DNA of 64,000 bases from the NCBI GenBank assembly GCA_021234155.1, contig JAJEKV010000064.1, forward strand, positions 3,782,001-3,846,000, in the 5' to 3' direction. The translations under genes were made by a program, and so were the position numbers. Shown here piece after piece: positions 4,564 through 43,790 of the stretch; position 1 is the stretch's first letter; each line of letters starts with the position of its first letter. The DNA comes from Isoetes taiwanensis (taxonomy: Eukaryota; Streptophyta; Lycopodiopsida; Isoetales; Isoetaceae). The notes beneath the pieces are model-generated. The model was not told the DNA's origin. It saw only the letters and a list, made by a program, of their open reading frames with translations, and ran no database searches.

Positions 4564-4886
4564 AGATTCACGTTTAACAACAAATAGACATAAGATGAAT
4601 CTCTCTCACACGTATCAACGTTTGTCACTGTTTCATTAGCTTTTTTGCATTGAAAGGTCATTTCTTTGGGAGGCATACATGTTTCGTATAAGATTAGTTC
4701 ATAGCGCATTTACACTTAAAAACAATGTTTGCTCCCATCCTTCATAGGGATGTACATTTCCTATTTCTATTCAACTACACTTATGCAATATGTCATTCTG
4801 CCCATTTCACCTACATAGACTCTATAAATTCTATTGTGGCCACAAAATCTAATACCCTAAAGCCATTCCCCACGCTCTCGAGAAAT

Positions 4887-4915
4887 GCCCGGCATCGCCG
4901 GGCACACGTTCCTAG
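4887..4915 (+). repeat. Helitron 3' end, copy c, abutting the chromovirus
   Basis: Hairpin GCCCGGC-ATC-GCCGGGC (4887-4903), then ACACGTTC and CTAG (4912-4915) followed by T. This is the textbook Helitron 3' terminus (hairpin, short spacer, CTRR, insertion before T). The next base begins readable integrase sequence of the chromovirus, so a Helitron end lies directly against that element. Confidence 0.75.
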
Positions 4916-4916
4916 T

Positions 4917-6309
4917 TTTAAGAAGGAAGGTAACATTTTGTACTATAGGAACAAGTTGTGTGTGCCCGAATCATCAGGAGTGAGGAAGTTGATTCTACAC
5001 GACACCCACAACAGTCCAATAGCTGGCCATGCAGGATTTATGAAGACATATTTCAAAGTGCGCAGCAGCTATTATTGGCCAGGGATGAAGAAGCAGATAG
5101 CTCGCTACATCAAAGAGTGTCAGATGTGTCAGCAGACGAAGGCAGAGCAGCTTCGAATTCCAGGAGCCTTGGAACCATTAGCGGTGCCGAACGCTAAGTG
5201 GGAGGTCATCAGTATGGACTTTATAATAGGGCTCCCGAGGACAGTAAGAGGGAAAGATGCCTTGATGGTTGTGGTCGACAAGTTGTCGAAGATGGCACAC
5301 TTTGTGCCTTGCAGGACCACTGACACAACTATGGATACAGCGAAGCTCTTCACCAAAGAAATCTTCAGGCTCCATGGCATGTCGAGAGAGATCATCTCCG
5401 ACAGAGACCCGAAGTTCATGAGTACCTTTTGGCAAGATCTTTTTGCGACGATTCAGATGAAGCTATCCATGAGCACGGCCTATCATCCTCAGACGGATGG
5501 GCAAACGGAATGGACCAACAGAATTTTGGAAGATATGCTACGAAACTATGTCTGGAACAAGCAAAGTATGTGGGAAGAGTATATTCACTTGGTTGAGTTC
5601 GCTTATAATAGCGCCAAGTAGGAATCATCCCAAAAGGTCGCCGTTCATGATCAACTACGGCTACCAATGTCTAACTCCAGACACTTGGCACAACCCCGTG
5701 TCAAAAGTAGAGGTTTCGCAGCAAATGTTGGCCGACATGCAGTAGCTAGTGGAAGAGGTTCGAGGATATCTTCTTGCAGCAAGGAGTCGACAAAAGAGCA
5801 TCGCCGACAAGCATCGGACAGTCAGAGAGTTCCAAGTTGGCGATGACGTGTGGCTCAAGAACAAAGTGAAACAGGCAAAGCTCCGCATCAGAAATTGTAA
5901 GAAGCTTGCTCCAAGGTGGGCTGGACCCTTCAGAATAGTCAGGAGAGTAGGTAATCAATCCTACAAGTTGGACCTCCCAGCACACCTAAAGATTCATAAA
6001 GTCTTCCACGTGAGTTTGTTGAAGAAGCATACTCCAAATTCAGATGAAGTCTTGGACACTCCAACGTTGTTGGAAATGACAGAAGAGCAACTCGAGATAG
6101 TTCCAGAATTGATTCTTGATAAAGCTTTCAAGAAAACAAGGAGATCAGAGTTTCTCCAATATTTGGTCAAGTGGAAACACTTGCCGGTGGAAGACGCGAC
6201 ATGGGTACTTAAGAAGGATCTATTAAAGCAGTACCCACAGTTCATGGAGCAATGGGACGGCAAGGTCATCTCCGAAGAAATCGGCTCATGCATGTCGATT
6301 TGTGTTTAG
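4917..6309 (+). pseudogene. Chromovirus integrase with C-terminal chromodomain (remains)
   Basis: The integrase inserts element cDNA into the host genome; the chromodomain is thought to steer insertion to marked chromatin. Seen in order: the HHCC zinc-binding region (HDTHNSPIAGHAG ... CQMCQQTKAEQ), the catalytic core (MDFIIGLPR, ISDRDPKF, YHPQTDGQTEWTNR), the GPFRIVRRVG.QSYKLDLP C-terminal fold with KIHKVFHVSLLKK, then a chromodomain (QYLVKWKHLPVEDATWV) near the end. This order is diagnostic for chromoviruses. It is a fossil with a small number of breaks. Confidence 0.93.
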
Positions 6310-6799: not shown

Positions 6800-8395
6800 T
6801 GTGACATTCCAGCACAGTATACGGTCCTAAGACGTATACTGTACTGCCTCGTCACGCGTACACGCCATCCCAATTGACGTGTACGCCGACGTGTAGCCAA
6901 GCAGGTAGCACCCTAGGGGGCAACTTGCAAGGTGTGTACATTTTATTAATGTGCACATTTACCCATGTGCACATTTACCCAAGTGTACACACTTACCCAT
7001 GTGGACACTTTATGCCACCTAGTTAATAAAGGCAAGTAGGCCACACCCAATTATCCCACATGCTTAAAGGGATAATGGGAAACCCTAGCCCTAACCCTTT
7101 GTCTATTTAGGTAAAGGAAACCCTAACTTGCTATTTTCGTCCATAGCATTCTAGGTCTCTGCTTTGCTTGCTCCAAAAGCCAAACCCGCCTCCCAAACTC
7201 TGTCTGAGCAGTTTAGCTCATCAGTTCTCCTTTCTAGCTTCATCTTCTAGCAGTTCAGCAGGATGGTCGAGTTCAGGGCAGGAGAAGCGAGCCAAGGATC
7301 AGGTATTTTGTCAATTTAATAGTCTAAACCGCCTCTCAGTCATTGAATAAGTAGGTTTAGCCTATTAAATTGCCCATAGCAGCCATCTAGATCCCTAGAT
7401 ATCGAGCCCTAACTAAAGAACCTAACTCTGTGATTTAGATTAGATCTTGTTCTTTAGTTCTTCTGTGATATGTATGGATGATGTATCTCTGTGGACTCAT
7501 TGTATTGGGAAGGGGGGTAGAGACCTTAAAGCCTGGTAGTTGATGCTCCTAGCTAGCCTCTTTAGCACACTGTAAATTCGGCCTGTGTACAAGAGCCACA
7601 CCGAGTTGTGGGTCGAAGGGCTAGACCGGCAGAACAATGGGGTACTTGTCCCAACACAGAACGATCCCTCTGGTGTGTAAAGCCTACCGGGGATCCTTGT
7701 GGACTAGGTCTAATGGCTTGCCACTGCGTGTGGGCAAGGCATGGGCTCGACACCCGTGGAGTGATGCGTCACTCTCCATTGTGTTCAAGTCGAATAAGGG
7801 CATTGGCCCTCTAGTCACCTGTGTTGGGCATGGAAGTCCTTGGAGGAGAGGCGACTCTCTTCCTGCCTCATCAGGACTGGGGAGATGCAATCCAGCAGTA
7901 GTCCTTTCGGCTATGCACCTGGCAGGCTACGGTCCGGTCCCAACACTTTTCAACCCAACCTGCAAAGTGTGCACAGGAGGGGCGGATGGAGTGGACTACC
8001 CTAAGCCATGTTCTCATGCCAGCCAAATCCATTGCCATGAATTCTGTCTGCAATGAACTCTGGAGACCCAAGCCGTCAGTCATCCCTTTGAGTCTGAGCT
8101 TTGGGTAGGATTTCCATATGTGATGTGCTGATCTTTGTCTATGCAGATATGTGATGAGCCATCCTTCGAGATGGTTATGTGATGTGATATTGTATACTGA
8201 CATGTATGTTTACGCTTCCGCAGCTAGGTAGGCCCTGAGGAAGATAGGGTACAATGACCCCTTCATTCTTCCCACTGGAACTCATCAAGGTTGCAGTGAT
8301 ACGTGGAGGGCCCTGTATCAGTATGGAGCTGGTATGGGGGATGAACTCCTATTTGTATACGGTGAGTGCACCGTATATGAGTAGGGGACGTCACA
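6800..8395 (+). repeat. Chromovirus 3' LTR (1596 bp)
   Basis: Starts TGTGACATTCC and ends GGGGACGTCACA, with short inverted ends TGTGAC/GTCACA. Bounded by the purine tract and by TACAC. The reverse complement of 21302-22897 has exactly the same length with scattered substitutions (13 or so in the first 550 bp). Small ORFs inside both LTRs (for example 7637-8056) are shared only because the LTRs are copies. Confidence 0.93.
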
Positions 8396-8400
8396 TACAC

Positions 8401-12606: not shown

Positions 12607-13683
12607 ATGGCCGATAGCATCATCAATAGCAGCCAGCAGAGGAGAGCGGATGCGGCAAGAGCGCCAGCGAGCCAACAGGACCTTAAGGATTTCTTAGCAC
12701 AGATGGAATCAAAGATCCCGAACTTGGATGCACTCAACGCACTGGCGGAAAACGTGTAACAGTAACAAACTAGCCATCGCTAGCATGGATGTGAGAGTAG
12801 GAGGCGTGGAGAAGACGAATGAGGAAATGCAGCGCAGAATGAACGAGATCGAAGAGGAAAAAGCAAAGATCCTGCAAAGGTTGGTTGAATTAGAGAAATC
12901 AAATGTTGAACTGGATGCATGGGAGTCATTTGATAGGATAAAGTCACATTTAATGGAATATGAGGAGCAAAGTAAAATTAAGCATAATGTTAGGCTAATT
13001 GGGATAGCGGAGAGACCTAATGGGGATATATATCGAGTTACTGCAGAAGTGTTAGAGACAGTGTTCAAGGAACACAGGAGCGTCATCGTCAAGGCTCTGT
13101 GGTCAGGTCAGTGGAGGGGGAGATCGAGGATATAAACCTGACACTAAGAGACATGGCAACCAACGAAAGAATCCTGCGGATGGGATCCAGATTGAGGAAT
13201 GGGATCAAAGTACAGGAGTCCCTAACGGTGATGAAGCGACAAGGGCTACACAGGGAATTAGCCAAAGCCAGGGAACTGAACCAAGCAGGAATACAGGCGG
13301 GGGTCAAGAACGGCAAGGTGTACCTCCACAAGAGAGTAAGGGAACAAGCGACCCAACCCCAAGAGCAGACAATGGGGATGCAAGGGATAACAAAAGCAAC
13401 GGAAGCAGAAAAGGAAAAGGAAAACATACACCCCCTGAAGGCAATGCAACAGGAGCAGGAGAGCAGATTGCAAGGGGGAGTACTGAGGGCGATCACGTTA
13501 GAAGGGAACCAGAACAGAGTAACAGGAAGAAACGGAGGCGGGGGAAACGAAGACCGAACAGCACAAACAGGGTTCGGGGGGCCAACCCCGACAATGAAGA
13601 CCAGAGGGAGACCAAGAAGAATAGGCAATGGTACAGAAAACACGGAGACCCCGAAGGAGCAACCTCAGGGGAAAAGACGCTGA
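12607..13683 (+). pseudogene. LINE ORF1 (RNA-binding protein), frame-disrupted
   Basis: Binds element RNA in L1-type LINEs. ATG at 12607 starts MADSIINSSQQRR..., followed by a coiled-coil-like stretch (EEMQRRMNEIEEEKAKILQR), an RRM-like segment beginning HNVRLIGIAERPNGD, and a C-terminal domain (LTLRDMATNERILRMGSRLR ... GKVYLHKR) with a basic, Gln-rich tail ending at TGA 13681-13683. Reading moves between frames near 12760 and near 13095, so this copy carries two frame changes. The last part also overlaps a fully open frame that continues into ORF2 (open from about 13056). Confidence 0.7.
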
Positions 13684-15113
13684 CATTATGGTACTGGAAC
13701 TGTGCCGGGTACCCGTGGGATGATGGAGAAAGACTAGAAGGTGCCCACGGTTGCGACATAATATGCTTAGAGAAAAAATGGGAGCATAACGTCAAAAGGC
13801 TGCTAGAGGAAGAAGGATACCAACTGTTCACGTGCTGGAAAGACAAGGATTTCAAGATAGGGAGGGGCAGTGCAGGTTTGGCCTGTTATATAAAGAATAA
13901 TATCGTTAACAGTGCATGTATGTTACATTCAGATATCAATAAAAGATATATGGTCTTGAATATCCAATTGAAAAGCAAACAAGAAGTATTTCTGATAGTT
14001 ACATATTACCCGCCAAACAGTGATAAGCTAGAATTGCTGGACTTAGGGGAAAATATAATGAAATGGAAAGAACATGGACCAATGATACTAGTAGGAGATT
14101 TAAACGCCAGAACCAAACAGGAACAAGCACAAATCACACAAATAGAGAAAAATGATGGTCAGATAACATACACGGCAAAGGCACAGGAATGGCAGAGAGA
14201 CACAGAGGATAAGGCAGAGGTCAATGCTAGAGGTGAATTACTGCTGGAAGTTTGCACGGCAATAGGAATGATCATAGCTAATGGAGTAAAGAAATGGAGG
14301 GGATCAGGGGGTTTTACAAGCCAGAATGCACATGGTAAGAGCATAGTGGATTATGTAATCTTGAACGACCAAGCAGTAGGAAACATAGAAGGACTAGTGC
14401 TACAAGAGTCGCCGACAGGAAAAAGGGAAAGTCATAGACCGATCCAGTTAACAATCAGAATGGAGGGGACACCACAGGTTGATAGCACAGGAAGGAAGGA
14501 GGATAAGAAGGACAAAGTGAGGATTCAATTCCAGGAGAAATACGCAGATACATTTATACACACAATCAGGGAGGAAATGGGAAAATGGGATTGGGAAAAA
14601 CACAACGCGAACGACAATGGGAACACCCTCAATGACATCATGGTAAGAGTAGCAACAGAGGTGTTTGGGAAAAGGATCAAAAACAGAAAGAACAGGGCAT
14701 TTAGAGCATCAATATGGTATGATGACGAGTGTAGAGAACAAAAAAGGAAAACAAAAGGACACAGAGGAAAGGAGACATACCAGAAAGAAAAGGCAGCGTA
14801 CATAAGATTACTAAAGAAGAAATGGTATAATAACCTGCTACAACACCAATGGTATATGGGAAAATTGTTGAAGAGACAGTCCCGGAGATTTTGGAGGGGA
14901 CTCAAACACAAGGGAGGGGACAACAATATGAAAACAAGGAATGAACAAGATGGTATCGGAACAGCGGGATGGGAGAATTATCTGGATAAATTGTATAAAA
15001 CAGGGGCACCTCCAGTATCAATACCAATACTGCAGGATTTGGACAAACCATGCTTTAACATGCTAGAGGTAATGATAGCCCTAAACAGGATGCACCAGAT
15101 CTATATGGCCTGA
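13680..15113 (+). CDS. LINE ORF2, endonuclease domain, truncated before RT
   Basis: The apurinic-like endonuclease nicks the target for reverse transcription. The frame is open from about 13056 through 15113 without a stop. Motifs in order: LTLWYWNCAG (Asn of motif I), CDIICLEKKWE (Glu), VTYYPPNS, ILVGDLNART (catalytic Asp/Asn), GKSIVDYVILND and ESHRPI. The last normally reads SDHxP, and the Asp is replaced by Ser here. A Lys/Arg-rich linker follows, and the last residues (LEVMIALNRMHQ) look like the start of the RT region before the frame is cut off. No in-frame ATG is evident near the domain; ORF2 overlaps ORF1, so initiation may depend on ORF1. Confidence 0.8.
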   Translation: MTLWYWNCAGYPWDDGERLEGAHGCDIICLEKKWEHNVKRLLEEEGYQLFTCWKDKDFKIGRGSAGLACYIKNNIVNSACMLHSDINKRYMVLNIQLKSKQEVFLIVTYYPPNSDKLELLDLGENIMKWKEHGPMILVGDLNARTKQEQAQITQIEKNDGQITYTAKAQEWQRDTEDKAEVNARGELLLEVCTAIGMIIANGVKKWRGSGGFTSQNAHGKSIVDYVILNDQAVGNIEGLVLQESPTGKRESHRPIQLTIRMEGTPQVDSTGRKEDKKDKVRIQFQEKYADTFIHTIREEMGKWDWEKHNANDNGNTLNDIMVRVATEVFGKRIKNRKNRAFRASIWYDDECREQKRKTKGHRGKETYQKEKAAYIRLLKKKWYNNLLQHQWYMGKLLKRQSRRFWRGLKHKGGDNNMKTRNEQDGIGTAGWENYLDKLYKTGAPPVSIPILQDLDKPCFNMLEVMIALNRMHQIYMA

Positions 15114-15114
15114 C

Positions 15115-15620
15115 CGTAGAATTTCGGGCTCTTCGATCTCAAGCTTGAAGATATATGCTACCTGCTCGCTCTTTACGCACTTGAGCAGTCACTTACTAGA
15201 CATACACTGCATGATAGGGATGACTTCTTTACCTGTGATCTCTATGATCTTGCCGTTAGGCGCCGGGAAGTAGCCACAACTTTGCGCCCCCAAGAATGGT
15301 TGAGATGTTGAAGTTGAAACCGTTGAAGTCCAAGCCGAGACCCGTGGTGTTAGCAAACGGGGGAGTAAGGCACACGGCAGGCAAAAGGATAAACTTCGAC
15401 ATTGATTTGCCGGGAATCAACATCCAGATGGGGGCAGAAGTAATGAAGTATTGGGAAGTATGATTTAATCATTGGAATGGAGTAGCTTGGACCAGCAAGG
15501 GCCATCATTGATTGTGGAAAGCCTTCCCTACTGTGGAGATTACCTTATACTGATTTTCTGCTTGTTCTGTATCTATGGCAGCAAAAATGTGACACTCACC
15601 CTGAATATAGTCGCGTGGTT
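15115..15620. pseudogene. Chromovirus protease-region remains
   Basis: Short stretches recognisable from retropepsin-region sequence of Ty3/gypsy elements, such as KPRPVVLANGGVRHTAGKR and DLPGINIQMG, and a post-protease stretch (GKIIEITGKEVIPIMQCM). The pieces are not all in the same orientation. Fossil; no intact protease. Confidence 0.65.
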
Positions 15621-16903
15621 CTCCGCCGTCGTCGTCAGATGGAGTGTCCCATCTCCCCAACTCTGCTAATGCTGCACTCATGACGAAGGGGCAGTTCGCT
15701 ATTCTGTGGCCTGGCTGGAAGCACCTGAAGCAAAACTGTTTCTCTATGTACTCCTGCCTCTTCTCCTTGGGCATTGCTTGCAAAAAGGACCGCACTGCTT
15801 TGGAGTAGTTTGACCCCTCTTGCTTGTCCTTGAAGGACACCTGCTTCTTCTCCTGCTCCTTCCCATAGTTCCCATGGGGCCTTTGCTGGACCCGGGCTAG
15901 CTGATCTAGGGCTATAGCCTCCTGTTGCCTTGCCTTTATCCTGATAGTGCTGTTGTTTCTGCCCACTGTACTGAGGCCCCGTCCCTTGCAAGCTTACTGC
16001 CTTGGATTCCGCCTCTGACACTGTCTTAGGGTTTATTGCCCTAACTAGCTTTCGGATCTCTTCGTTCAACCCTTCTATATATCCTTCCACTGCGTGCCTT
16101 TCGCTCAACTTGGGCATATACAATCTGAGTCTCATGAACTCCTCTGTGTACTTTTGCACGGACTTGTTGCCCTGCTGCAATCGATGAAACTGCTGCATCA
16201 TGTGGCACTTATGTTTCCTTGGCACGTAGTGACGCTTGAATGCCTTAGCGAACTTCTTGAACCTGCAACCATCCCTGTTTAGGCCATGGGCCTTGGCATA
16301 GCCCTTCCACCAAATGCGAGCTTCTCCCTTAAGGTTGGCTGTTGCCACCCTACCTTTGTCCTTGTCTTTCATGCTGTAGGCGTTGCCATACTCTCTCATC
16401 TCATCTAGCCACGCCTCTGCTTCCATCCCAGACCTGTTATCTCCCGAGAATTGCTCCAACTTTCTTGCTTTCCATACATTGATGATCGCTGAGTCTACCT
16501 TCTTCTGGTAGTTCGAGGTCTTTGAGTCTTTGGGTCTGCCATCCCTACGGTCCTGCACCTGTTCTGCCTCTTCCTCGGAATCAGAGTCCGAATCCGAGCT
16601 TGAGTCAGAGGATTCCGTGCTGGGGGACCTCCTTCTCTTGCTCTTCCTCTTATCTTTTCCCGCCTTTCGAGCTGGTGCTTGCGGCAACTGGGTGTTGCCA
16701 TCTGGACCAACTCCTGCCTGTGCTGCCAAGAAGGCCTTTATCTGATCGAGGTCTGTTCTCATCTGCGATATCTCTTCTGTAGGGGTCATGGGGCCGAATT
16801 CCTCGTATAAGCTCCTTGCTGGGTGCGGCCTGGGCGGAGTCTGTTCATCCCTACGGGCTCGCCATTCTTGTTCAGCTGTGCCTGGACCTCTAGCTGCATA
16901 CAC
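15505..16903 (-). pseudogene. Chromovirus gag with CCHC zinc knuckle
   Basis: Gag packages element RNA into virus-like particles. The ORF starting at 16903 has a Pro/Arg-rich N-terminus, a basic tract (KAGKDKRKSKRRR) followed by a Ser/Asp/Glu run, then the retrotransposon gag core (KLEQFSGDNRSGMEAEAWLDE ... ARIWWKGYAKAHG ... FKKFAKAFKRHYVPR ... YTEEFMRLRLYMPKLSE). A CCHC knuckle, CFRCFQPGHRIANC, lies near the 3' end (about 15705-15750). It stands about 4.4 kb from the primer site, unusually far. Fossil, broken. Confidence 0.9.
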
Positions 16904-17057
16904 AGTAGATCATGGCCTTACGATTAGCTTTTTATATGTGTTTGTTGGTATAGTTGTGGAACAAAATACATCAACAAAACATTTAAAGTGCAAAAGAAAA
17001 TGTATTTATATAATATATAATATCTTAAGTACAATGCCCCCGGGATCAAGAGTCTAA

Positions 17058-17933
17058 CTATTCTTGAAATCGCCGGTAGGATGGGTTATCCTGGAGAAAC
17101 TTCTTAACTTGGGCCGTTCCTACGGAGCGTCCCAAGTTTCTGAGGATGTTGGTTGATGTTCCGCCCTGCCAGGCTTGCACCAAGTCTTCTACCCTGCAGT
17201 CGGATGTGTAGGCCGCGGTCACTGCTAGTCTTCCCTGCCGTCGGTAGGGCACAGCGAAGTCGAAGATGTCAAGTGCCATCATTCTCTTGACTAAGATGGC
17301 GTAGTCGGTGTTTGGGGCCAGCCGAGCATGCCTGCCAAAGCCCGAGAGTGCGATGAGCATGAACACTCCTTCTTCGCCCCTTGGGCTGAATTTGCGGTGA
17401 ATTACCGTTATTCTCCCGTCCATCAGCAGAGGAAGATAGTATCTTAGCGACCTGTCCCTGCCCGCTGCTGTTGACTCGTCGTCTCCTCGGGCACCGGCTC
17501 TATGTCTTCCCGCATACTCATCGACGTCGATCTCTGTGATATCTCCATAGTCCCTGACTGTCGATGTAATTCGCCGCAGGTCGATCTCGCCTCTTCTCTG
17601 AACACCCGTGGGGGTTGGCGTCGAAGGACTTGGCATCAAAATGTTCATGGTCTTGCCACGGATCCCCATCCGTTCTTGAATGGCATAAAACTCTTCTTCA
17701 GATGGTAGGTCTCGAGCTTCCATCATTTGGCGGATGCTGCTGTACGCCTGAATATCTGAAGTCGACTCCCCTGTATAGGTGTCGGCTTCTCTGACCTGGA
17801 TTGGAAAGTCGGAAGCCTCCCGGTCGATGAAGTCATCCAGATCTGGTTGTTGCCGCAGAAGATACAGCAACTCGTCGAGTCGGTACTCCCTGTCTCTGCA
17901 TTCGGGGAGGTTCTGGATGTCACTAAGGAGCAA
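17058..17933 (-). CDS. Accessory ORF E of the chromovirus, unknown function
   Basis: 291 codons, ending just upstream of gag on the same strand. The N-terminal third is acidic (DLDDFIDREASDFPIQVREA), a middle part is Ser/Thr/Pro-rich (MPSPSTPTPTGVQRR), and the C-terminal half is globular-looking (LRYYLPLLMDGRITVIHRKF, GVFMLIALSGFGRHARLAPN, VPYRRQGRLAVTAAYTSDC). No gag, envelope or polymerase motif is visible. I do not recognise it. It is the longest of the accessory ORFs and the least decayed. Confidence 0.6.
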   Translation of the reverse strand: MLLSDIQNLPECRDREYRLDELLYLLRQQPDLDDFIDREASDFPIQVREADTYTGESTSDIQAYSSIRQMMEARDLPSEEEFYAIQERMGIRGKTMNILMPSPSTPTPTGVQRRGEIDLRRITSTVRDYGDITEIDVDEYAGRHRAGARGDDESTAAGRDRSLRYYLPLLMDGRITVIHRKFSPRGEEGVFMLIALSGFGRHARLAPNTDYAILVKRMMALDIFDFAVPYRRQGRLAVTAAYTSDCRVEDLVQAWQGGTSTNILRNLGRSVGTAQVKKFLQDNPSYRRFQE

Positions 17934-18018
17934 GTACTCCTGGCCGTCGATGAATGATGGGAGCTAGGCTTGTGATACCTAGCCCGAGCGGGGGAGCAAT
18001 TCTGAGGGTCCGCCGGTC

Positions 18019-18315
18019 TTATTCGAAAATTGGCGTCACCTGTTCTGCTAGCTGGCGCTCTTCTTCGGGGTCGAACTCGACGTAGTCTTCGTCGTCTGTG
18101 TCGACCGCTTCATCATCTGCTCTTCCTTCTTGTTCCGCTTGATACTGCAGTAATAGCTGACCTTCTGCTGAAGAGGCTAAGGGGTCTACATCCATGGGAG
18201 GAATCGAGGTTTCCCCAATGGGGTTCTGGACCCGGTGGGAAAGAAACATGGCTAGGGCAGCGATGTAGGAAAAATACTTGTTTCTATTAGATGTCAAGAC
18301 CATGTAGTCTGGCAA
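18019..18315 (-). CDS. Accessory ORF D, acidic
   Basis: About 98 codons with a hydrophobic N-terminal segment (YFSYIAALAMFLSHRV) and a strongly acidic C-terminus (DDEAVDTDDEDYVEFDPEEE). Same strand and spacing as the neighbouring accessory ORFs. Function unknown. Confidence 0.4.
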   Translation of the reverse strand: MPDYMVLTSNRNKYFSYIAALAMFLSHRVQNPIGETSIPPMDVDPLASSAEGQLLLQYQAEQEGRADDEAVDTDDEDYVEFDPEEERQLAEQVTPIFE

Positions 18316-18332
18316 CCTAGCAGCTTTATTGG

Positions 18333-18653
18333 TCAGATATTTGGCAATGTTGGGGACATCACGTAAGGCTGCTTGGAGGGACTGCCTAGGGACAAAATAT
18401 CATGTGCAACAACTAGGGACGGTTCTACCTTAGCTTGGAATTCGGTCATGACTTCCAGGTAGGCTGGGGTTGCTTGCAAGGTGGCTTGGACATCTCTCTC
18501 TTTCCGGAAAACTTGAAAAATTGCATTGACATCAGCCTCGGCTGCATGGGCACTGGCGCTGTACCATCGCCTAAATTCAGCAGTTGCCATGGATCTAGAG
18601 GGTATTAGGCTATCAAACAGATGCAAAAGCACCTCAGGGAGCTGAAAGATCAC
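18333..18653 (-). CDS. Accessory ORF C
   Basis: About 106 codons from 18653; a second ATG at 18590 (MATAEFRRWYSASAHA) is a more natural start. Helical, Ala/Glu-rich (VNAIFQVFRKERDVQATLQA). It is the first ORF of the second accessory group; two of the 66-bp palindromes lie 250-580 bp upstream of it. Function unknown. Confidence 0.4.
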   Translation of the reverse strand: MIFQLPEVLLHLFDSLIPSRSMATAEFRRWYSASAHAAEADVNAIFQVFRKERDVQATLQATPAYLEVMTEFQAKVEPSLVVAHDILSLGSPSKQPYVMSPTLPNI

Positions 18654-18904
18654 CTAGAAGGTCGGGAGCAGACTTGTAGGATGCTAAGTGAGAAATGGGG
18701 GCCTATTTATAGACAAGGAAAAAACCCTAATTTTTGGATGACTTGAAAAACTGTTGGGGTTAGGCAAATCTGACCTATTTTGAGGTTCAAATGGGGATTG
18801 GAAGGCTAATTTGAGGGCTTGAGCATGAATAGGACTGTCTAATGAACCTATTGCAACAAACTAGAGGTCAATTGGGGGTGACATGATAGAGAAAATATTG
18901 GAAG

Positions 18905-18971
18905 GTCTCATATTGTGCGCCTGGGGCTCGACCTAAAATTTAGGTTAGGCCTCTGGCGCATAGTGTGAGAC
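18905..18971. repeat. 66-bp palindrome, copy 1
   Basis: Begins GTCTCATATTGTGCGCC and ends GGCGCATAGTGTGAGAC, arms about 17 bp with two mismatches; inner arms CTGGGGCTCGACCTAA / TTAGGTTAGGCCTCTGG also pair partly. Lies in the leader of the second accessory ORF group. Confidence 0.85.
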
Positions 18972-19106
18972 AATTGGCCCAACTTGGTCAATACTTGTCC
19001 AATCTGGGTAAATTAAGGGTCAAAACAACTAGTCTCATCGAGTTAGGCAAGGTTGACCCCTTACTTGGTCGATTTCGAGGTGTTTTGGACTACTTTTGGT
19101 GTGAAA

Positions 19107-19172
19107 GTCTCACATTGTGCGCCCAGGGCTCGACGTAAATTTTAAGTTAGTGCTCTGGCGCACAGTGTGAGA
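19107..19172. repeat. 66-bp palindrome, copy 2
   Basis: GTCTCACATTGTGCGCC ... GGCGCACAGTGTGAGA, about 200 bp from copy 1 and in the same leader region. Confidence 0.85.
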
Positions 19173-19318
19173 TATTTCTCACTGATCGGTCTAAATATGA
19201 CCAATTTGACTAAAACAAAAGCCATTATTTGCTAACTCAACTTAATTAAGTACATTTATACACTTATAATTTACTAAAAAAAAACACTTTGTATTCACAA
19301 AATTTTTGATTTACAAAA

Positions 19319-19504
19319 TTAATAAGGCTCTCCTTTAATATCATTCGCCAGTTGCATATCCTTCTTCATTAAGGTTACCCTTTTTGCGTGTACTGTGCAT
19401 GCCGTGGAGTCTTCGAAATGTTGGACCAGCTTCTGCTCTGCTGCTTCTTGCAAAGCCAATAGCATCTCGCCTGTCACTCTTATTTCGGTGCTGAATTCTT
19501 GCAC
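19319..19504 (-). CDS. Accessory ORF segment, helical
   Basis: 61 codons ([20 protein letters not shown] ... [20 protein letters not shown]), predicted helical. Last open segment of the first accessory group. Unknown function; fossil context. Confidence 0.35.
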
Positions 19505-19561
19505 AACTTCCTTTACCAGCCTGGCGAAGGGTGCACGGGGAATAAGGAAGCCGAAGCTCCT

Positions 19562-19750
19562 CTAAAAATGCCAGATCTCCCTGATTGCTCGATTCAGCTT
19601 CGAGTGGGCTTTCCTTTTCGGCGACTTCTTTGGAGGTACGGGCTTCTCTGGCGGCGGCTTTAGGGTCTGCTTCTTCGACGGCCGTCCACCTTCGACAAAA
19701 GTGACCTTATTCGCCTGATAATAGGAGTTGTAGGCCTCCCATTTCTTCAT
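19562..19750 (-). CDS. Accessory ORF segment, Lys/Pro-rich
   Basis: 62 codons with a basic, proline-rich middle (KKQTLKPPPEKPVPPKKSPK, then RKAHSKLNR) that looks like a nuclear-localisation or nucleic-acid-binding tail. Unknown function. Confidence 0.35.
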   Translation of the reverse strand: MKKWEAYNSYYQANKVTFVEGGRPSKKQTLKPPPEKPVPPKKSPKRKAHSKLNRAIREIWHF

Positions 19751-19777
19751 GTACTGCTGGTGCTCCTTCAGCTTCTA

Positions 19778-20032
19778 TCACATAGGGTCTATCACATATG
19801 ACTCCCTGGCAGGTCGAGGCAGTTTCTTGTTATCCTTATCCTTCTCCCGAGTTGGATATGGCGGGGGTGCCTGCACCTGCTGACTCTGCTCTCCCTCCTC
19901 TTGTGCTGGCTGGTCCTCACCTGGGGCCTTGGAAGAACTCCCACCTTCAAGATGAGGATTGAAATCCTCGTCGTCTGAGTCATCGGAGGAGACGGGCTGG
20001 TCGGCTGGCCGTTCCGTGATGACGACTTTCAC
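19778..20032 (-). CDS. Accessory ORF segment, acidic and Pro/Gln-rich
   Basis: 84 codons, with acidic SSDDSDDEDFNPHLEGG, then Glu/Gln-rich and a Pro-rich PPPYPTREKDKDNKKLPRP. Low complexity; unknown function. Confidence 0.35.
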   Translation of the reverse strand: MKVVITERPADQPVSSDDSDDEDFNPHLEGGSSSKAPGEDQPAQEEGEQSQQVQAPPPYPTREKDKDNKKLPRPARESYVIDPM

Positions 20033-20346
20033 GTTCGGCGTCTCCTCTTGGGCTCCTCCACATCCTTGCCCTTGCGCTTCTTCTTCTCTGTCGCCTCCTT
20101 AGCTTCCTTTTCCTCTCTCTTCCTCTTTTTCTCGGACTTTTTCTTCTCTCGGCGCCGTTCCTTCGCCTCGTGCTTCCGAATCCAGGCCGCGAGTTCTTCC
20201 TCCAGGGTCGGCTCGGGAATCGGCTCCCTCTGCTCTTCGTGCGCCTTTGCCTCCTGCTCTCGCTCGGCCTTTTCTTGTTTCTCTTTCTCCATCTGCTCGA
20301 GCACTCTCTGGATTTCGTCGTCGTCGCCTTCCATTTCCTCGAGCAC
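20029..20346 (-). CDS. Accessory ORF segment B, charged coiled coil with basic tail
   Basis: 105 codons. The N-terminal two thirds are a Glu/Lys/Gln coiled coil (MEGDDDEIQRVLEQMEKEKQ...), containing EEELAAWIRKHEAKER, and the C-terminus is strongly basic (KKKSEKKRKREEKE ... EPKRRRRT), a likely bipartite nuclear-localisation signal. It follows the H3-like ORF A directly on the same strand. A nuclear, chromatin-facing role fits the composition but is inference. Confidence 0.45.
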   Translation of the reverse strand: MLEEMEGDDDEIQRVLEQMEKEKQEKAEREQEAKAHEEQREPIPEPTLEEELAAWIRKHEAKERRREKKKSEKKRKREEKEAKEATEKKKRKGKDVEEPKRRRRT

Positions 20347-20396: not shown

Positions 20397-20597
20397 CTAT
20401 CTCCTGGTCGATGATGTCGGCCAGGTTATCTTGTGCTCCCTGCTGGGATCCTTCTCCCTGGCGCTCCTCTGAAACTGTCCACTCGATGAAGGTTGGTCTC
20501 CTCTCGCAAGAAGACGCTCCCGAAGCATCTGCTGAATTTGGGCGCTGGTCGTTTCGTCTCCTCGAGGAACCCGAGCAGTTTGTTTGGTTCTCGCCAT
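20397..20597 (-). CDS. Accessory ORF A with histone H3-like N-terminus
   Basis: 66 codons from an ATG at 20597. The protein opens MARTKQTARVPRG. Residues 2-9 (ARTKQTAR) are identical to residues 1-8 of mature histone H3, including R2 and K4, the residues read by many PHD fingers and acted on by H3K4 enzymes. K9 is replaced by Val, and no histone fold follows. The rest is Gln/Arg/Ser-rich (TTSAQIQQMLRERLLARGDQ). It is the first ORF after the LTR and primer site, with two 66-bp palindromes between. Chance identity over eight residues right at the start is unlikely; mimicry is inference. Confidence 0.6.
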   Translation of the reverse strand: MARTKQTARVPRGDETTSAQIQQMLRERLLARGDQPSSSGQFQRSAREKDPSREHKITWPTSSTRR

Positions 20598-20813
20598 GTC
20601 TTACGGCTCGTCGATCGAAGGTCGGGCGCCCAAAAATCGCCTCAAAAAGCGGGAGCAGTTTTCTAAAGAGGAAAACGCATAAAAATGAGGGGGGATCTAG
20701 GTCTATTTATAGCTTGGGCAATTTTAGGTCAAATTTTAAGTTGCTCCTTTTAATGTGTCCGGGCACCTATTGACTTAAAACATATACTTATTTCAGAATT
20801 TTCTAAGCCACTT

Positions 20814-20880
20814 GTCTCACATTGTGCGCTGTGGCCTCGAGCTAATAATTAGATCAAGCCTCTGGCGCATAGTGTGAGTC
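20814..20880. repeat. 66-bp palindrome, copy 3
   Basis: GTCTCACATTGTGCGC ... GCGCATAGTGTGAG, with a more diverged centre than the others. About 215 bp upstream of the ATG of the H3-like ORF. Confidence 0.8.
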
Positions 20881-21025
20881 ATTATGCATTTTAGACTAAA
20901 TTATGTGATTTCTAGGCATATTCCTAGGGTTCTAATATACAAATCCAACTAATTCTTACCTAAAAACTCGATTTAGCATCTTACCTTATTGAAATTCATC
21001 AAGTTCTGAGGTGATTATGGCCAAT

Positions 21026-21092
21026 GTCTCGCATTGTGCGCCCAGGGCTCGACCTAAATTTTAGCTTGGTGCTCTGGCGCACAGTGTGAGAC
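21026..21092. repeat. 66-bp palindrome, copy 4
   Basis: GTCTCGCATTGTGCGCC ... GGCGCACAGTGTGAGAC, about 200 bp from the tRNA primer site and 212 bp from copy 3. The same pair spacing is seen for copies 1 and 2. Confidence 0.85.
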
Positions 21093-21288
21093 ATTTCTAC
21101 TTTTGGGTCAAAATTTATTCAACTTTTTTAGTTTTTCTTGGTTCTTCAATTCTTCTAACTGTTACTAGCTTAGCATATGCTACAAAAATGAGAAAAAAAT
21201 TTCCCACCTTTTCGAGGTTTGAGAATCCTACTAAGTTAGTACTACTGGGAGCATGGCCAGTGCTTTGCTCTTGGTCACCAAGAACATT

Positions 21289-21300
21289 GCTCTGATACCA
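21289..21300 (-). other. Primer binding site for tRNA-iMet
   Basis: On the minus strand TGGTATCAGAGC, the complement of the initiator-methionine tRNA 3' end used by most plant LTR elements, one base inside the LTR end. Confidence 0.95.
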
Positions 21301-21301
21301 C

Positions 21302-22897
21302 TGTGACGTCCCCTACTCATATACGGTGCACTCACCGTATACAAACAGGAGTTCATCCCCCATACCAGCTCCATACTGATACAGGGCCCTCCACGTATCA
21401 CTGCAACCTTGATGAGTTCCAGTGGGAAGAATGAAGGGGTTATTGTACCCTGTCTCCCTCAGGGCCTACCTAGCTGCGGAAGCGTAAACATACATGTCAG
21501 TATACAACATCACATCACATAACCATCTCGAAGGATGGCTCGTCACATATCTGCATAGACAAAAATCAGCACATCACATATGGGAATCCTACCCAAAGAT
21601 CAGACTCAAAGGGATGACTGACGGCTTGGGTCTCCAGAGTTCATTGCAGACAGAATTCATGGCAATGGATTTGGCTGGCATGAGAACATGGCTTAGGGTA
21701 GTCCACTCCATCCGCCCCTCCTATGCACACTTTGCAGATTGGGTTGAAAAGTGTTGGGACCGGACCGTAGCCTGCCAGGTGCATAGCCGAAAGGGCTACT
21801 GCTGGATTGCATCTCCCCAGTCCTGATGAGGCAGGAAGAGAGTCGCCTCTCCTCCAGGGACTTCCATGCCCAACACAGGTGACTAGAGGGCCACTGCCCT
21901 TATTCGACTTGAACCCAATGGAGAGTGACGCATCACTCCACGGGTGTCGAGCCCATGCCTTGCCCACACGCAGTGGCAAGCCATTAGACCTAGTCCACAG
22001 GGATCCCCGATAGGCTTTACACACCAGAGGGATCGTTCTGTGTTGGGACAAGTACCCCATTGTTCTGCCGGTCTAGCCCCTCGACCCACAACCCGGTGTG
22101 GCTCTTGTACACAGGCCGAATTTACAGTGTGCTAAAGAGGCTAGTTAGGAGCATCAACTACCAGGCTTTAAGGTCTCTACCCCCCTTCCCAATACAATGA
22201 GTCCACAGAGATACATCATCTATACATATCACAGAAGAACTAAAGAATAAGATCTAATCTAAATCACAGAGTTAGGTTCTTTAGTTAGGGCTCGATATCT
22301 AGGGATCTAGATGGCTGCTATGGGCAATTTAATAGGCTAAACCTACTTATTCAATGACTGGGAGGCGGTTTAGGCTATTAAATTGACAAAATACCTGATC
22401 GTTGGCTCGCTCCTCCTACCCTGAACTCGACCATCCTGCTGAACTGCTAGAAGATGAAGCTAGAAAGGGGAACTGATGAGCTAAACTGCTCAGACAGAGT
22501 TTGGGAGGCGGGTTTGGCTTCTGGAGCAAGCAAAGCAGAGACCTAGAATGCTATGGACGAAAATAGCAAGTTAGGGTTTCCTTTACCTAAATAGACAAAG
22601 GGTTAGGGCTAGGGTTTCCCATTATCCCTTTAAGCATGTGGGATAATTGGGTGTGGCCCACTTGCCTTTATTAACTAGGTGGCATAAAGTGTCCACATGG
22701 GTAAGTGTGTACACTTGGGTAAATGTACACATGGGTAAATGTGCACATTAATAAAATGTACACACCTTGCAAGTTGCCCCCTAGGGTGCTACCTGCTTGG
22801 CTACACGTCGGCGTACACGTCAATCGGGATGGCGTGTACGCGTGACGAGGCAGTACAGTATACGTCTTAGGACCGTATACTATCCTGGAACGTCACA
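21302..22897 (-). repeat. Chromovirus 5' LTR (1596 bp)
   Basis: Minus-strand LTR, start TGTGACGTTCC at 22897 and end GGGGACGTCACA at 21302, next to the primer site. Same length as the LTR at 6800-8395 and about 98% alike. The outer flank on the element strand is TACAC. Confidence 0.93.
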
Positions 22898-22902
22898 GTG
22901 TA

Positions 22903-42830: not shown

Positions 42831-42958
42831 CCTGCTCAGTTAGTTCAATTAAAGCTTCTTCAATGCTCTGGCCTTACCTTGTCAATTGAAGTTTTGTTGG
42901 GAATGACAGTATCCTGGAAATGGTTCTGAGGTAAAACTCTGCTACAGAATTTTAGAGG

Positions 42959-43790
42959 ATGATGTGGTTTACACATGGGATAGTAAAAAACAGAAAAGGG
43001 GATTCATGGTGTTATCTTGACAAAGAAGGTTTCTGTGAACTCAATATGTGGCTCCTTAATAATTGCTATATCATACAAGGAAAAGGGGTTTGGAAACAGA
43101 TCTGTGGCATACCCATGGGATTTGCTTGTTCCCCTGAGTGGTGCAATCTGTATTTATCATATTTTGAGTTAAAGCACATTGAAAAACTGGCTAACAAAGG
43201 TAGACTCCATGATATTGTGAAGTTTAAGGATGCCAGAAGATACATAGATGATGTTTGTATCCCTAACGGTGGTGACCTATCTAACTTCTTTCAAGAAGGG
43301 AAGAGCTGTAGTGAATGTGATAATATATACAATCTGCAACTTTTACAGATAAAAGATGAGACTGAGTATCAACCAATGGAAAGCAATAAGGGATCAATTG
43401 GTTTTAAGGGTAACTTTTTGAGTGTCACCATAGAAGTGATCAATTCTCCTACTGGTCTGTACACTACTTATAAGTATGACAAGAGAGATAAGAAGAAGAA
43501 GAAGAAGAAAAATAATCTGGTATGTTTGAAAAATGCTTTAGTTGTGAATTTATCATATGTTAAATTTCTAATGATGAAGGATTTATGGAAGTTGATATGG
43601 ACTAATATGGATAAATATGAGTTATGGGAAAGAAAATGAAGGAAAATATTCAAGCTATCTTTTACAATGTATTTGATGGGCCAAAGCCAAATGAATATCT
43701 ACCAAATGGAGATGTGATAAAATCTTTTTCACTAAAGGTTATTTTATCTCATGATCTAGCATTTATTGCTACACATGGAATTTAATGATA
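42959..43790 (+). pseudogene. Reverse-transcriptase remnant of unusual (Penelope-like?) type
   Basis: The ORF 42959-43639 contains WKQICGIPMGFACSPEWCNL followed by YLSYFELKHIEKL and the catalytic-type box FKDARRYIDDVCIPN. GIPMG...SP...NLYL with RYIDD is not the LTR or L1 type; it is closest, from memory, to Penelope-like and related single RTs. The N-terminal palm (first catalytic Asp) is not visible upstream, so the gene is truncated. A Lys run (43490-43510) comes from an AAG repeat, and coding texture continues to about 43785 in another frame (YNVFDGPKPNEYLPNGDVIK). Confidence 0.6.

Follow-up and report, generated by a model that had tools for sequence, protein, structure and literature searches.

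The question raised by this locus is whether a reading frame which opens with the exact N-terminus of histone H3, inside a plant retrotransposon, carries only a borrowed tail or belongs to a histone, and what such a protein may do for the element encoding it. The window analyzed here is the whole stretch of 64,000 nt from Isoetes taiwanensis, covering positions 3,782,001 to 3,846,000 of contig JAJEKV010000064.1 on the forward strand. The original prediction described an ORF at 20397-20597, the first one after the primer site, which opens MARTKQTAR and of which the first eight residues after Met equal those of H3, with Val in place of K9. All these points were borne out. The ORF reads MARTKQTARVPRGDETTS at its start, no other minus-strand ORF of at least 50 aa begins between the primer site TGGTATCAGAGC (21300-21289) and 20597, and the translation gives Val at residue 9 in the window copy. 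The strand, which had not been given earlier, is minus (20597-20397). The beginning of this frame, called ORF1 here, is mapped in the window as follows.

20397 to 20597, minus strand: first open segment of ORF1, 66 aa, taken from the ORF listing, opening MARTKQTARVPRGDETTS
20571 to 20597, minus strand: start codon of ORF1 and H3-identical tail MARTKQTAR, taken from the translation

When the 66-aa first segment was used alone as a query, no homologue was retrieved. The original prediction held that no histone fold follows the tail, and that an acidic stretch with a basic end comes in the adjoining ORF. The acidic and basic stretch is present, at 20346-20029 on the minus strand. The statement on the fold is wrong, as ORF1 itself goes on to encode an H3 fold some 1 kb further downstream (frame 0, minus strand, 19561-19322). 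The remaining parts of ORF1 are given below.

20029 to 20346, minus strand: ORF1 linker, acidic coil and then a Lys/Arg-rich stretch, in another frame (frameshifted copy)
19589 to 20098, minus strand: second half of the ORF1 linker, frame 0, with two adjacent stops in the window copy
19322 to 19588, minus strand: alphaN helix and histone H3 fold of ORF1, ending IKGEPY and a stop, identified through Pfam PF00125, PDB H3 chains and genome copies

The fold at 19561-19322 (minus strand) was matched to the Pfam family Histone (PF00125) with E=4.3e-22 and to the best PDB H3 chain with E=3.6e-21, and it aligns without gaps to H3 residues 59-134 in solved nucleosomes; its identity to two canonical H3s is 53-56%. 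The alphaN helix comes immediately before the fold in the window and reads REIRHFQRS in other copies. The window ORF1 is disrupted by two frame changes and three stop codons, and an in-frame stop at 19562-19564 lies within the alphaN/fold segment itself; because these frameshifts and stops break ORF1 in the window copy, the fold was missed from the letters of the window alone. A tail without a histone is ruled out by the frame-0 fold at 19561-19322 and its Pfam and PDB matches.

The full anatomy of the protein was read from 58 genome copies picked solely by their fold (L009-L038 and L044-L071, L009 being the window itself). ORF1 is uninterrupted from tail to fold in seven of them, with a length of 412-428 residues, and the other 51 are broken by the rule used. 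The acidic-then-basic order of the window linker is also found in the uninterrupted copies. In all seven the linker spans 308-332 residues from residue 9 to alphaN, with an acidic block at residues 51-100 (net charge -12 to -17) and a basic block before the fold at residues 301-350 (net charge +11 to +14). The canonical H3 layout, in which a tail of about 36 residues with K9, K14, K27 and K36 is set directly on the fold, is not the layout of ORF1. The ORF1 protein is an H3 N-terminus followed by a long insertion and a constrained histone fold, and not an H3 tail placed on a non-histone protein. A PPPY motif was also observed in the linker of five of the seven uninterrupted copies (L020, L036, L038, L046 and L055), which in our view resembles viral late-domain motifs and may be a chance occurrence in a proline-rich stretch.

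Within the fold, C110, H113, D123, L126, R69, R83, R116 and T118, which we take to be residues of the H3-H3 interface and DNA contacts, are each kept in 53 or 54 of 54 in-register copies, a count biased towards conservation because the copies were picked by fold similarity. Of the 43 columns at which 90% or more of other H3-type folds agree, the element keeps 34, against 15 of the 45 less conserved ones. Other positions have changed: the chaperone-recognition residues 87-90 have become EMLL, almost without exception in the copies, K56 is replaced by R, R63 is replaced by P and K79 is lost. Because of these changes the normal deposition pathways may reject the ORF1 protein. Nor are histone folds confined to use in nucleosomes.

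The frame belongs to an LTR element, of which the following parts were located in the window.

22898 to 22902, minus strand: TACAC, putative target-site duplication at the 5′ end of the element, the same 5 bp being present beyond the other LTR
21302 to 22897, minus strand: 5′ LTR, 1596 nt, TGTGAC...GTCACA, with an inverted copy at 6800-8395
21289 to 21300, minus strand: primer-binding site TGGTATCAGAGC, read from the sequence
20811 to 20886 and 21023 to 21098, minus strand: two hairpin units of about 76 nt in the leader, found by repeat comparison, with computed folds
18902 to 18977 and 19104 to 19179, minus strand: two hairpin units in the spacer between ORF1 and ORF2, found by repeat comparison
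17058 to 18653, minus strand: ORF2, from open reading frames, broken in the window copy, with no assigned function
15505 to 16909, minus strand: gag, Ty3 capsid and weak CCHC zinc knuckle, frameshifted, from Pfam
4698 to 5621, plus strand: integrase, H2C2 zinc-binding domain and rve core, 3′ part of the element, from Pfam
5746 to 6309, plus strand: integrase C-terminus with chromodomain, Pfam Chromo 1.3e-10
6800 to 8395, plus strand: 3′ LTR, inverted relative to the 5′ LTR, from LTR comparison
8396 to 8400, plus strand: TACAC, matching target-site duplication, the same 5 bp as at 22898-22902

The primer site TGGTATCAGAGC is presumably complementary to initiator tRNA-Met, and a leader of about 0.7 kb separates it from ORF1. 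Of the roughly 76-nt hairpin unit (GTCTCACA...TGTGAGAC), two copies precede ORF1 and two precede ORF2; the unit is a possible regulatory or translation signal, or possibly the trace of a duplicated leader. The pieces of ORF2 gave nothing above the curated cut-off in Pfam or NCBIfam, and its 301-aa piece gave no PDB match. The two LTRs of the window show 35 differences over 1596 sites (K2P 0.0224, 98% identical), and the outer flank of each is TACAC in element orientation. The simplest reading of this arrangement would be one insertion that was later split by inversion or misassembly. Because of the LTR identity and the TACAC flanks, the chromodomain is assigned to the same element as ORF1, and the name chromovirus used in the original prediction is supported by the integrase and chromodomain at 4698-6309, which are followed by an LTR 98% identical to that on the ORF1 side. 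The chromovirus features found are LTRs, a primer-binding site, a Ty3-type gag and a chromodomain at the integrase C-terminus, the chromodomain in the window only; no reverse transcriptase of the ORF1 element was identified within the window. Two further frames were observed: a LINE-like endonuclease ORF at 13056-15113, between the inverted LTRs, with an Exo_endo_phos_2 match of 7.7e-06 just below the cut-off, and an ORF at 42956-43639 (plus strand), which in our judgement looks like a Penelope-type reverse transcriptase and gave no Pfam match at E<=0.01.

The chromodomain at 5746-6309 was read by eye, and its first and third aromatic-cage positions are not aromatic, which is the type II pattern and not type I. 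Under the aromatic-cage rule as outlined in PMC6317226, such chromodomains are type II, for which the binding partner is unknown. A K9me-based link between integrase and tail would find no support here, and any link through the chromodomain appears weak because the window chromodomain shows the type II pattern.

The distribution of ORF1 was then followed across the 1.66-Gb genome. A degenerate pattern for the MARTKQTAR start occurs at 904+984=1,888 places, some of which may be true host H3 genes; the reversed control occurs at 0 places, and the count expected from the base composition of the window is 0.005. A chance match of the tail is ruled out by the 1,888 places against these two figures. 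With the 80-residue fold as query, 8,249 candidates came up at first look, and all of the 150 that were scored matched at E<=3.6e-36; a second fold query gave 8,166 candidates, with matches again in 150/150 of those scored. Remains of an H3 fold are present downstream of the tail in all eight fetched tail-pattern loci, the best at 1e-37 (L002), with 5e-12 or better in five loci and 2.5e-9, 9e-8 and 7e-4 in L007, L003 and L005, respectively. The genome holds ORF1 at hundreds of sites at the least, and probably at thousands.

Three 9.5-kb loci around further copies (L039, L041 and L043), a non-random choice made for a long ORF1 frame, were compared with the window. All four have LTR, leader, ORF1, hairpin spacer and ORF2 in one and the same order, the LTR being partial in L041 and L043 and ORF2 being partial in L039. 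The gag probe matched in L041 and L043 and not in L039, and the exact primer site TGGTATCAGAGC is present in the former two and absent as an exact match in L039. The LTRs of the other copies read are only 82.6-88.3% identical to that of the window. The three loci and the window alike have ORF1 as part of an LTR element. The integrase-chromodomain probe gave no match in L040 and L042, the loci downstream of L039 and L041, so the link between ORF1 and the chromodomain rests on the window. In L042 an ORF from 4393, holding MAAAADLAAWYHDGEKW, resembles by eye the ORF2 start MATAEFRRWYSASAH, and perhaps belongs to a second element family with an ORF2-like protein.

The start codons of the 58 copies were located by DNA alignment to five probes, four of them with an intact tail, and 51 copies were mapped; as this alignment spans the start codon, badly decayed tails may be those missing. 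Going upstream from the start, an in-frame stop is reached no more than three codons away in 33 of the 51 mapped copies, at 4-40 codons in 15 and further away in three. In the 33 copies the frame therefore cannot begin much earlier, and because an in-frame stop is close upstream in most mapped copies, the ATG of MARTKQTAR is a plausible start codon of ORF1. ARTKQTAR is exact in 31 of the 51 mapped copies (58 sampled, seven unmapped) and at least seven of its eight residues are kept in 46, the exact copies being encoded by 22 distinct DNA versions. At residue 9 the 51 fold-anchored copies, a set centred on the subfamily of the window, have V in 40, K in four, I in three, L in two, and P and R in one each, whereas K is present in six of the eight fetched loci found by the tail pattern. 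The loss of K9 stated in the original prediction thus stands for the window copy and for most of the fold-anchored copies, and does not hold in general; it is a subfamily trait.

The copies with the fold had been picked by protein similarity to two folds, and the tail played no part in the picking. Two copies with a frameshift in the first codons were set aside, which left 49 for the tail. In these the pN/pS of codons 2-9 (H3 residues 1-8) is 0.105 (bootstrap 0.073-0.144), against 0.760 (bootstrap 0.648-0.868) for codons 10-19, and the tail value was below that of codons 10-19 in 200 of 200 bootstraps. The check on motif conservation and synonymous change that the original prediction had proposed therefore comes out in favour of the motif: the tail is kept and its neighbours vary. 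The pN/pS of the fold is 0.092 in 54 of the 58 copies, a value biased low because these were picked by protein similarity. In the seven uninterrupted copies the values are 0.052 for the tail, 0.113 for the fold and 0.312 for the linker. The tail and fold of ORF1 both appear to be under purifying selection by this measure. A neutral-drift simulation of the fold alone left 17% of neutral runs free of stops, which is too weak to discriminate; it was the genome copies that settled the matter.

The origin of the fold was considered between H3 and CENH3. Its top database matches include plant CENH3 and fern proteins, and the best single match is a plant CENH3. Loop 1 has a length of 22, as in H3.3, whereas it is 23 in all seven of the plant CENH3-type hits that were checked; the source names two of these CENH3 or HTR12. 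In a tree, the ten element folds used form a group apart from the 22 other sequences (support 99.5/100) on a long stem, and their attachment point is not placed; an earlier tree of 123 sequences gave no resolution either. A CENH3 origin is disfavoured, short of full exclusion, by the loop 1 of H3 length and by the tree, which separates the element folds. Descent from H3 rather than CENH3 would rest on the tail together with loop 1, as loop length alone is not decisive, the longer loop (23) being also present in some non-CENH3 hits, e.g. P0010.

A similar arrangement was found in another set of proteins. P0007 (346 aa) opens MVKTKQMARK and has a long insert and a C-terminal H3 fold. Its search gave 6,297 proteins at E<=1 among 8,000 scored, and the family, drawn from the best 120 listed, was counted as at least 104 members (P0007 and P0121-P0226 less P0136, P0157 and P0203); it occurs on ENA contigs, and a cluster holds as many as 41 member sequences. 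A recognisable start is present in 66 of the 104, by a rule which itself forced K4 and limited positions 1-3 and 5; among these R8 is found in 66/66 and K9 in 65/66, positions 10-16 vary, and exact ARTKQTAR is found in none of the 66. No homology was detectable between the P0007 insert and the ORF1 linker (hhalign probability 0.45%), and the fold of the family forms a separate clade next to canonical H3 with support of 99.7/100, and for these two reasons the P0007 family looks independent of ORF1. The two are alike in having a tail, a long insert and an H3 fold in multi-copy proteins; they differ in that ORF1 lies within an LTR element, whereas the P0007 family was read from protein matches. 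Searches of viral contigs gave no relatives for the ORF2 piece, the fold, P0007, the P0007-family alignment (A2) or gag, and no relatives of alignment A2 were found in prokaryote genomes.

We regard it as close to certain that the element encodes an H3 variant which is under selection. The full explanation, with its mechanism, by which ORF1 of a chromodomain-bearing Ty3/gypsy family encodes a divergent H3 variant, is probable. The pattern of what is kept suggests that the element may use a home-made histone on host chromatin. The ORF1 protein would be translated from the element RNA, would enter the nucleus and pair with host H4, and would be built into nucleosomes or H3-H4 tetramers on the DNA of the element or of its integration sites; that it works by entering nucleosomes is a proposal for which we put the chances at even. 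The K4-bearing N-terminus of H3 would then be offered on a long arm to host readers and writers, and the usual modifiable tail residues past position 9 would be missing. The most likely benefit would be a silencing-resistant chromatin or a marking of the element's own copies, although anti-silencing as the benefit of the ORF1 histone is a tentative proposal on the doubtful side. A wider possibility, which we place somewhat below an even chance, is that a retrotransposon family makes its own nucleosomes and by them sets the chromatin state of its copies or integration sites, with P0007 as a second, independent invention; such a histone would go without the usual modifiable tail beyond residue 9, and in the subfamily of the window without K9 as well, and would carry a selected K4-bearing tip on a long arm.

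A pure tail decoy is less likely than a working histone, because the protein that the tail begins is itself an H3, one with a constrained fold and a long insertion. Such a protein would stay off the DNA, or pair with H4 for stability only, and its free tail would titrate readers, H3K4 enzymes and silencing factors. The tail position on a long and more variable linker, and a constraint on residues 1-8 about as strong as that on the fold, agree with such a role, yet a decoy needs no DNA contacts, and R69, R83 and R116 are kept in 53-54 of 54 copies (picked by fold); we consider it unlikely. Otherwise the protein may compact the cDNA or RNA of the element, within the particle or the pre-integration complex, for which viral histones on giant-virus genomes offer a precedent (PMC9145170). 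This packaging role is improbable in our estimate: it would fit the strong acidic and basic blocks of ORF1 and its place upstream of gag, with ORF2 between, in L041, L043 and the window, but packaging alone leaves the constraint on ARTKQTAR unexplained.

Gene capture by elements is common, and 51 of the 58 sampled copies are broken, as may be expected of a host H3 gene fragment which was swept up and merely copied. A transduplicated fragment of this type would show no selection on the captured coding sequence, whereas pN/pS is about 0.1 in tail and fold; moreover, the same arrangement recurs in copies with LTRs only 82.6-88.3% identical to that of the window, conserved H3-type columns are retained preferentially (34/43 vs 15/45) and the folds form a single well-supported clade with a long stem, all of which makes a passive passenger very improbable. 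A host family of divergent H3 variant genes merely lying beside LTRs is scarcely credible: divergent H3 genes exist in many genomes and CENH3 is among the database matches, but the same succession of LTR, leader, ORF1, spacer and ORF2 is seen in the four copies read (a non-random sample) and the copy number is far above the scale of a gene family. A chance match or a convergent short-motif mimic without histone ancestry, to which the window copy lends itself by seeming fold-free in one frame, is ruled out for practical purposes by the H3 fold that ends the same ORF in uninterrupted copies.

The element-encoded histone bears on how transposons are viewed, as these are thought of as targets of silencing which read marks through chromodomains and not as suppliers of histones. 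A retrotransposon with its own selected H3 would show a parasite acting on the nucleosome itself. Its copies form a natural experiment, in which the parts of H3 that are kept (residues 1-8, tetramer interface and DNA contacts) can be set against those discarded (most of the tail), and they make it testable whether an element can escape silencing through histone composition rather than DNA sequence.

Histone mimics are short H3-like motifs, as in influenza NS1. ORF1 shares with them an exact H3 N-terminal sequence outside canonical H3, and differs in that the mimics have no fold whereas ORF1 carries a constrained histone fold in the same ORF. Among the results listed by searches of open-access full texts, a body which leaves most subscription papers and all bioRxiv preprints outside, no retrotransposon-encoded histone was found. 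Among plant Ty3/gypsy elements, those of orchids captured an AlkB-type domain, an RNA demethylase, and the extra domains listed in the same source are AlkB, G-patch, KOW, ArgoL2, B3, AIR1, CHROMO and PMD, with no histone among those listed (PMC9289625). The orchid case resembles the present one, as in both an additional ORF encoding a conserved domain became fixed in a Ty3/gypsy element of a plant; the domain is an RNA demethylase there (PMC9289625) and a histone here. Single H3 histones are described in DNA viruses, namely a xenomavirus, a prasinovirus and Sylvanvirus, with 75-87% identity to eukaryotic H3 (PMC9145170). These also are parasite-encoded H3s expected to work with host histones (PMC9145170); ORF1 is unlike them in that it matches H3 closely over the first eight residues only, with a fold of 53-56% identity to two canonical H3s and a long linker in between. 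The nearest case found there is the H3-like gene of a fungal hAT DNA transposon in Pyrenophora tritici-repentis (PMC3538342). This H3L gene has a PF00125 domain and occurs in 26 copies, its proteins have insertions in the N-terminal tail and match fully neither H3 nor CenH3, and according to the authors the genes may have undergone drift (PMC3538342). ORF1 resembles H3L as an H3-like gene carried by a mobile element with an insertion in the tail; H3L belongs to a fungal DNA transposon with few, near-identical copies (PMC3538342), whereas ORF1 belongs to an LTR retrotransposon, its copies are divergent and far more numerous, and its pN/pS is about 0.1 in tail and fold.
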